NCBI GenBank assembly: GCA_028279865.1
Contig: JANQMV010000007.1
Coordinates: 1 to 38,565, forward strand
Length of the DNA stretch: 38,565 nt
Reading direction: 5' to 3'
Source: Candidatus Altimarinota bacterium
GTDB taxonomy: Bacteria; Patescibacteriota; Gracilibacteria; JANQMV01
The position numbers and the translations under genes are program-made. The notes beneath the pieces were generated by a model that was given only the letters and a program-made list of their open reading frames with translations, made no database searches and was not told where the DNA came from. Positions 27,475 through 37,034 of this stretch are shown here, in pieces; position 1 is the stretch's first letter; every line of letters begins with the position of its first letter.

Positions 27475-27927
27475 TTAATAGCGCGCAAAATGAGCAAATG
27501 CCTTGTTTGCTTCAGCCATCCTTTGTACATCCATTTTCTTTTTAATTGCTCCGCCCATTTCAGAAGCAGCATCACTAAATTCTTGAGCTAACTTTTGTGG
27601 CATTGCAGTATTTTTTCTTTTGCGACATTCTGCCAAAATCCAGCGAATACTCAACGTAAGCTGTCTTTTTGGCTTTACTTCGACAGGGACTTGGTAAACG
27701 GCACCTCCGACTCTTTTTGGCTTAACTTCAACTCGAGGCATAACATTATGAATCGCCTTTTCAAAAACCTGGTCAGGTTTCTTATTTTGTTTTCTCAGAA
27801 TTTCGAATGCATCCTGCATAATTTTTCTCGCAACAGACTTTTTACCGTCTAGCATCAGCTGGTTAATAAATTTTTCAAGTAATGCATTTGAACTGTCGGG
27901 GATATAATTTGCTTTCTTTTGTGCCAT
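27475..27927 (-). CDS. rpsG: Ribosomal protein S7 (uS7)
   Basis: A 150-residue protein of normal length, with KFINQLMLDGKKSVARKI near the start, the conserved NVMPRVEVKPKRVGGAVYQV and PVEVKPKRQ, RWI, and the C-terminal KKKMDVQRMAEANKAFAHF. S7 binds the 3' major domain of 16S rRNA in the head of the small subunit. It follows rpsL by 31 bp as in the str operon, but fusA and tuf do not follow: the next gene is the convergent rel. No TGA; ends in TAA. Confidence 0.97.
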   Translation of the reverse strand: MAQKKANYIPDSSNALLEKFINQLMLDGKKSVARKIMQDAFEILRKQNKKPDQVFEKAIHNVMPRVEVKPKRVGGAVYQVPVEVKPKRQLTLSIRWILAECRKRKNTAMPQKLAQEFSDAASEMGGAIKKKMDVQRMAEANKAFAHFARY

Positions 27928-27958: not shown

Positions 27959-28372
27959 TTAACTTTTCTTTGCTCCATACTTTGAACGACCGCGTTTACG
28001 ATCTTTAACTCCCTGAGTATCAAGGCTACCACGCACAACATGATAACGTACACCGGGAAGATCTTTTACTCTTCCGCCGCGGATGGTCACCACACTATGT
28101 TCTTGGAGATTGTGTCCTTCTCCGCCAATATAAGCATTAACCTCTGTTCCATTTGTAAGACGTACACGCGCAATTTTACGCAAAGCAGAATTCGGTTTTT
28201 TTGGTGTCATTGTAGTCACTTTAACACAAACTCCTCTTTTTTGAGGCGCACCTCTCTTTAATTTGGATGGTTGAGATTTTAGCGTGTTAAAAGTATTTTG
28301 CATCGCAGGCGATTTACTCTTCTTCGCTGTTGTTTTTCTTGATTTACGAATCAACTGATTAATTGTTGGCAT
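27959..28372 (-). CDS. rpsL: Ribosomal protein S12 (uS12)
   Basis: A 137-residue protein starting [10 protein letters not shown], with [37 protein letters not shown] and the basic C-terminus RKRGRSKYG. It is the longer S12 form, with about 12 extra residues before PQKRGV, as in Firmicutes. Lys in TPKKPNS and in RVKDLPG are the residues found in streptomycin-sensitive S12. It has a likely promoter of its own (28406-28435) inside a repeat-bearing gap after rpoC. Ends in TAA. Confidence 0.97.
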
Positions 28373-32416: not shown

Positions 32417-32653
32417 AAGTTAGAACTTAGATTTTAGAATATTAGATCTTAGAGTATTAGTTCCCTCTCCTTTTCAGGAGAGGCTAGGCGGGATAGGCAT
32501 TACTTATACTTCACCCTACTTAATGCTTAATTTAGTTCTTTTCAACTTTATTATTCTGAACCTTTTTGCTTAACCCAACCTAAGTAAATATAATGGTCGG
32601 AATAAAACTTTTGGTATCAACCTGCAGGGTTGAACCAACTACTGATTTAAAAT
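32417..32653. other. Gap between ssb and rpoC: hairpin and repeat-like remnants
   Basis: No gene seen. It holds a 7-bp hairpin, CCTCTCC-TTTTCA-GGAGAGG (32464-32483), in a setting (CTAGGCGGGATAGG, then TTCACCCT) that resembles a common bacterial intergenic repeat, and a second small hairpin, TCAACC-TGCA-GGGTTGA (about 32618-32634). Close to the rpoC start is an A/T-rich stretch with TTTAGAATATTA (32433-32444), which also occurs before rpsL (28382-28393). Confidence 0.5.
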
Positions 32654-33151
32654 TTAAAAATTCAAATCATCACCCTCCATCGTGCTATCATCTTTCTTTT
32701 TTTCTTCTACCTTCTCTTCCTTTTTATCTGTAGAATCTTCTGATCCTTCGTCATCATAATTAGCATCTTCATCGTAATCTGTATCGTCATAATCCATATC
32801 ATCTTCCACTTCCGATCTTTTGTTTAGCATGATCATATCTTGCACAACAACTTCTGTGCGAAACATCTTCACACCTTCAGAGCTTTCCCAAGAGCGAGTT
32901 TTAAGATAGCCTTCAACGTAAATAAGTTTGCCCTTTTTCAAATATTTCTGACAAATTTCCGCTAACTTACCCCATACCGCAATGTTATGGTATTCAGCCA
33001 GAGAACGTTTTTCGCTTGTTTTTGTGGTCCACTCTCGGTTGGTTGCCAGTCCAAAAGTCACAACAGGTTGACCGCTACTTGTTTCTTTAATTTGCGGATC
33101 ACGTGTCACATTTCCGACAAGAATAACTTTGTTCACACTTTTCATACTCAT
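32654..33151 (-). CDS. ssb: Single-stranded DNA-binding protein
   Basis: A 165-residue SSB. The OB-fold domain (about 5-112) has NKVILVGNVTRDPQIKETSS, FGLATNREW, EYHNIAVWGKLAEICQKYL, KGKLIYVEGYLKTRSWE and FRTEVVVQDMIML. An Asp/Glu-rich tail follows, ending in DDLNF, a variant of the usual D-D-I-P-F tip that recruits repair and replication partners. The start is Met1 at 33151; Met3 is also possible. It lies between rpoB (91 bp upstream) and rpoC (237 bp downstream) on the same strand, an unusual place: ssb is normally next to rpsF/rpsR. No TGA; ends in TAA. Confidence 0.95.
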   Translation of the reverse strand: MSMKSVNKVILVGNVTRDPQIKETSSGQPVVTFGLATNREWTTKTSEKRSLAEYHNIAVWGKLAEICQKYLKKGKLIYVEGYLKTRSWESSEGVKMFRTEVVVQDMIMLNKRSEVEDDMDYDDTDYDEDANYDDEGSEDSTDKKEEKVEEKKKDDSTMEGDDLNF

Positions 33152-33242
33152 TTTATTTAGGTAATAAAATATTCATGACTTTTTATTTTTAAGATCAAAT
33201 CGTTTTAAATTTTCATAAGATAAATTTAAACGTCTGCTTAAG

Positions 33243-37006: not shown

Positions 37007-37034
37007 ATTTTAGTTAAAAAATATAATTTGTCAA
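37007..37034 (-). promoter_or_regulatory. Consensus promoter of rpoB
   Basis: On the minus strand: TTGACA (37029-37034), a 16-bp spacer and TAAAAT (37007-37012). The predicted start is near 37000, giving a leader of about 130 bases before the rpoB ATG. It is divergent from the promoter at 37054-37082, with the two -35 boxes 19 bp apart. Confidence 0.7.

Follow-up and report, generated by a model that had tools for sequence, protein, structure and literature searches.

Few bacterial gene pairs are as stable as rpoB-rpoC, and rpsF-ssb-rpsR counts as a classic cluster. In Bacillus subtilis, SsbB is a competence SSB with a reduced tail. According to PMC8509808, ssbA of Bacillus and Staphylococcus lies in the rpsF-ssb-rpsR cluster, while in Klebsiella and E. 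coli the gene found between rpsF and rpsR is priB; PMC12143593 and PMC8509808 describe the SSB tip as the docking end for replication and repair partners. In the lineage studied here, it appears that a core gene left the rpsF-rpsR cluster for the rpoB-rpoC junction and was kept there across many families. Our literature search on Peregrinibacteria, Patescibacteria and the candidate phyla radiation returned no earlier description of an ssb embedded between rpoB and rpoC, and within that literature the gene move is apparently undescribed so far.

The window analyzed here is an entire contig (C43; 38,565 bp) of a 1.48-Mb draft genome of 59 contigs, designated G000. It carries complete open reading frames for rpoB, ssb and rpoC, all on the minus strand, such that a single gene is interposed within an rpoBC pair that otherwise retains its common strand (Table 1). 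The open reading frames and family scores bear out what a sequence-only reading of this DNA had reported, namely that ssb separates rpoB from rpoC on a shared strand and is set off from them by gaps of 91 and 237 bp, respectively. The same reading held that rplJ and rplL do not precede rpoB. This stands for the visible 1.7 kb, where no rplJ/rplL-like or other ribosomal protein open reading frame was seen, but it goes no further, because the window is the whole contig and the view upstream of rpoB stops there. In G009, a member of the family nearest to G000 (f10), rpoB is preceded by a gene for a penicillin-binding protein. The closest RpoB matches to G000 among named genomes are from Patescibacteria, at 59%, and G000 is the only member of its taxonomic order.

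Table 1. Features of the rpoB-ssb-rpoC locus in the window, and the three genomic copies of the 24-nt element
Feature	Position	Strand	Evidence or remark
rpoB, RNA polymerase beta subunit, 1208 aa	33243-36869	-	TIGR02013, 1540 bits; Pfam Rpb2 domains
rpoB-ssb spacer, 91 bp	33152-33242	-	coordinates; promoter/terminator scan
ssb, second type without Pro-Phe tip, 165 aa, C-terminus EGDDLNF	32654-33151	-	PF00436, 124.5 bits; TIGR00621, 142 bits; clade B
ssb-rpoC spacer, 237 bp	32417-32653	-	contains hairpin and 24-nt element
rpoC, RNA polymerase beta' subunit, 1284 aa	28562-32416	-	TIGR02386, 1574 bits
rpsL (S12), downstream of rpoC	27959-28372	-	TIGR00981, 212 bits
rpsG (S7), downstream of rpsL	27475-27927	-	TIGR01029, 175 bits
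Best promoter-like site 5' of rpoB, putative operon promoter	37007-37034	-	11/12 consensus matches, consensus scan alone
24-nt element, copy 1	window 32423-32446		just upstream of rpoC start codon
24-nt element, copy 2	G000 C22:6190-6213		just upstream of start codon of ABC-permease-like gene
24-nt element, copy 3	G000 C33:12093-12116		just upstream of rpsR start codon

The sequence-only reading had taken this placement to be out of the ordinary, but it is frequent among related genomes. A first sample of 60 genomes from the class contained 15, G000 among them, with ssb inside the rpoB-rpoC pair, and five more with ssb behind rpoB, where rpoC was elsewhere or the contig ended. The second sample of 145 genomes, mostly drafts and inclusive of the first, contained 133 in which both rpoB and rpoC domains were typed, and in 94 of these the two genes were side by side on one strand (G027 and G008, judged side by side in the first sample, fall outside the 94). 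An ssb was inside the pair in 38 of the 94, on the coding strand every time; these comprise the original 15 and 23 new cases, each of which was tested. They come from families f1, f2, f4, f10, f15, f18, f20 (one of two genomes), f96 and f98, and include every sampled genome of f10 (15) and f18 (8) with both flanks listed. Because 38 of 94 genomes share the order, it is common in this lineage, which is the result that the sequence-only reading had itself named as refuting its observation; the placement is real and, for the lineage, ordinary. An error of assembly, which the fragmented state of the draft might suggest, was rejected and is vanishingly improbable, given that the same order recurs in 37 other genomes from eight other families.

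The remaining 56 of the 94 genomes lack an embedded ssb, and the gap exceeds 600 bp in three of them. In G015 (f16) it holds a Na/Ca exchanger gene (L134:4378-5325), as recognized by Pfam, and G202, from the same family, has a similar-looking open reading frame (only that of G015 was Pfam-scanned); in G241 (L302), the two domains are about 1 kb apart, and no recognizable SSB was found in that interval. At the junction of G008 lies a dCTP deaminase gene (L135:210-797). Among genomes with both domains, rpoB and rpoC were separated, either by a long distance or by lying on different contigs, in 20 of 20 from f5 and 16 of 16 from f7 (loci L128-L133 and L275-L288 for f5; L139, L144 and L150 for f7). 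Within the stretches read, ssb still followed rpoB in nine of the 20 f5 genomes and was not seen next to it in 11, nor was it seen beside rpoB in f7, for which some stretches were short. Three loci, L130 (G045), L285 (G255) and L286 (G261), have two tandem ssb genes behind rpoB, one of them strongly diverged. Further, in G049 (L136:1425-6645) ssb precedes rpoB instead of following it, standing between the elongation factor Ts gene and an rpoB-rpoC pair; its family, f11, is TGA-recoding. Many in-frame TGA codons occur in rpoB and rpoC of some families of the class, which fits Gracilibacteria in the broad sense.

Outside the class, the statement that rpoB and rpoC are almost always adjacent proved to be the rule. 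A phylum sample of 145 genomes, 10 of them from the class of G000, provided 121 genomes outside the class with both genes on one contig and strand, and none of the 121 has an embedded ssb. The median distance between the Pfam end domains of the two genes was 178 bp in these genomes, and the only one above 500 bp, G080, has a YdjM-family gene in the gap (L152:4019-4582), not an ssb. Likewise, among 80 named loci from other bacteria, the 74 that could be measured showed no SSB match in the rpoB-rpoC gap and distances of at most 635 bp.

The embedded ssb encodes a second SSB type that lacks the canonical tip. The embedded protein of G000 scores above the cut-offs of the bacterial SSB models PF00436 (124.5 bits; cut-off 26) and TIGR00621 (142 bits; cut-off 53.95), and only 23 bits against the PriB model TIGR04418 (cut-off 72). 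In an SSB tree of the class, built on 110 alignment columns, two clades, A and B, lie on the two sides of one branch (SH-aLRT 95 each), and all embedded SSBs in the tree belong to clade B, without the Pro-Phe tip. Specifically, none of the 38 embedded proteins ends in Pro-Phe, versus 43 of 46 clade A proteins. The embedded SSB of G000, with its tail DDLNF, also lacks an acidic tip ending in Pro-Phe and is the only one of the 38 with a final Phe. Twelve of the 38, all from f18, f96 and f98, share a DLGL tail (loci L250, L251, L255, L263, L264, L266, L269-L272, L118 and L121), possibly a changed docking tip, and outside this group the C-termini are very varied. The positions aligned with W41, Y54, W60 and W88 of the G000 protein, which we take to be the ssDNA-stacking aromatic positions of the OB fold, are aromatic in 34, 38, 38 and 38 of the 38 embedded proteins, respectively.

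The canonical tip of G000 is found on a different protein, encoded on contig C49 (L171:3631-4473), with 280 aa, two OB domains and the ending EDLPF. Clade A SSBs are two-OB proteins with this ending in f1, f2, f5, f10 and f15, and their best PDB likeness is to the SSBs of Deinococcus and Thermus (1se8, 2fxq). In G022 (f17), the two OB domains occur as two neighboring open reading frames. Judging from what PMC12143593 and PMC8509808 say of the tip, the tip-bearing SSB would do the replicative work. In three f10 genomes (G009, G040 and G056), however, the embedded SSB was the only one found, such that it may be their sole SSB, or the other is absent from the draft; these genomes speak against a simple division of labor between the two types.

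The free clade B copies point to where the embedded gene may have come from. Such copies lie between rpsF and rpsR in f3, f4, f6, f8, f13, f16 and f18. Of the 12 treated as rpsF-rpsR copies, nine are flanked by both S6 and S18, two are at a sequence end (L204, L196), and one has S6 alone recognized (L209); eight of the 12 keep a final Phe. An S6 search of 28 genomes, successful in 27, located an ssb between rpsF and rpsR in three, G003 (f4) and G025 and G035 (f18), each of which also has an embedded copy. The site lacks ssb in the other 24, which comprise all 12 embedded genomes of f1, f2, f10 and f15, the five with ssb behind rpoB and seven others. In G000, rpsF and rpsR are adjacent on C33 with no ssb between them, so the classic rpsF-ssb-rpsR arrangement is absent. 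In the G000 group, ssb thus seems to occupy one site or the other, whereas the coexistence of both copies in G003, G025 and G035 looks like duplication in f4 and f18. The two groups with an embedded ssb are apart in the RpoB tree, on which the trait changes at least six times, and at least four changes are needed on the SSB tree. A single origin was not rejected by the AU test (p 0.09 and 0.13), and the SSB tree and this test leave both a single move and several moves standing.

We consider co-transcription of rpoB, ssb and rpoC in G000 likely from the arrangement of the sequence, in line with the earlier suggestion that the three genes may share a message, although the support is indirect. 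The genes are on one strand in all 38 embedded genomes, and their spacing is tight in the relatives: the first sample has 14 embedded genomes besides G000, with -1 to 145 bp from rpoB to ssb and 19 to 129 bp from ssb to rpoC, except in G024, where an SLH-domain gene occupies an ssb-rpoC gap of 1127 bp. Given these short gaps, the 237-bp gap appears to be an expanded spacer peculiar to G000. A consensus scan of the coding strand returned no promoter- or terminator-like site in either spacer of G000. The longer spacer contains an 8-bp hairpin with a GAAA loop (about 32464-32483), which was rejected as a terminator because no T run follows it and the scan gives none there; the fold z-score of the spacer (-1.57) is not exceptional, and the operon gives no match to known RNA elements in Rfam. 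The 24-nt element has three copies in the G000 genome, with 0-2 mismatches, each immediately 5' of a start codon, and its rpsR copy lies in the very gap that ssb occupies in other families. It is a candidate for a shared regulatory leader of rpoC, rpsR and the permease gene, a reading weakened by there being just three copies in G000. The supposed tie of SSB supply to RNA polymerase synthesis is conjectural and would not concern the canonical-tip SSB.

Taken together, these results make it reasonably probable that a second-type ssb of the rpsF-ssb-rpsR cluster was relocated or copied into the rpoB-rpoC junction, where it would still be co-transcribed and have no special function linking SSB to the polymerase. 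The rpsF-ssb-rpsR gene of the class encodes an SSB without the Pro-Phe interaction tip, and this gene would have moved into the junction in the G000 group and been copied there in the other. A single message, rpoB-ssb-rpoC, perhaps extended by rpsL-rpsG, would then start upstream of rpoB. The rpsF-rpsR and rpoBC operons are presumably equally strong. Since the old and new sites would both be growth-linked, highly expressed operons, the move would leave expression much as before, without any special SSB-polymerase function. The embedded SSB would presumably coat ssDNA through its OB fold but bring in few DLPF-docking partners; their recruitment would stay with the tip-bearing SSB, which in G000 is the two-OB protein on C49.

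The position itself could instead be functional, with the tip-less SSB working alongside RNA polymerase, through co-translational assembly or on ssDNA at R-loops or transcription bubbles. Retention of ssb between rpoB and rpoC across nine families, its persistence behind rpoB in the nine f5 genomes with split genes, the conserved aromatic positions and the DLGL ending would all fit. However, ssb was not seen beside rpoB in the 11 other f5 genomes, and the dCTP deaminase, Na/Ca exchanger and YdjM-family genes at the same junction suggest that it tolerates inserts; we therefore think this functional placement unlikely. It is also very doubtful that the tip-less SSB became a polymerase-linked ssDNA-binding factor, marked by DLGL in one group, while in the other a new two-OB SSB ending in DLPF took over replication. 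A tolerant junction could also host a redundant, drifting paralog, with neither its location nor the lost tip being of functional significance, as the varied C-termini outside the DLGL group, the long branches of f15, f2 and f5 in the SSB tree, the f5 genomes with no ssb seen next to rpoB and the other inserts might indicate. The occurrence of the gene throughout f10 and f18, the preservation of the key aromatics and the tight spacing to both neighbors argue against drift, and we regard it as rather unlikely. Finally, a tip-less SSB relative from the rpsF-rpsR site might act in replication restart as PriB does, here after a move to rpoBC; the division would be the same, with a tip-less OB protein at rpsF-rpsR and a tip-bearing SSB elsewhere. 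The gap between the SSB and PriB model scores, and the final Phe in most rpsF-rpsR copies, make this highly improbable. We thus favor the relocated or copied second-type ssb. Because the move accompanies a split into tip-less and tip-bearing SSBs, the latter partly with two OB domains, the class is a natural setting in which to test the purpose of SSB tails and of operon context.

Relative to known systems, the closest parallels are each partial. B. subtilis SsbB is likewise a second paralog of SSB whose tail is reduced, but at a different locus. The SSBs of Deinococcus and Thermus (1se8, 2fxq) have two OB domains per chain, like the other SSB of G000 and unlike the embedded one, the two-OB protein being encoded on C49. 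Enterobacterial priB, as described in PMC8509808, is similar in being a tip-less OB-fold SSB relative at rpsF-rpsR with a tip-bearing SSB elsewhere, whereas the embedded SSB of G000 is not PriB by model score and is also relocated. The rpsF-ssb-rpsR cluster shares with this locus a homologous SSB in a growth-linked operon and is where the free B-type SSBs of the class are located; in G000, in contrast, ssb is missing from that cluster and is found inside the rpoB-rpoC pair.
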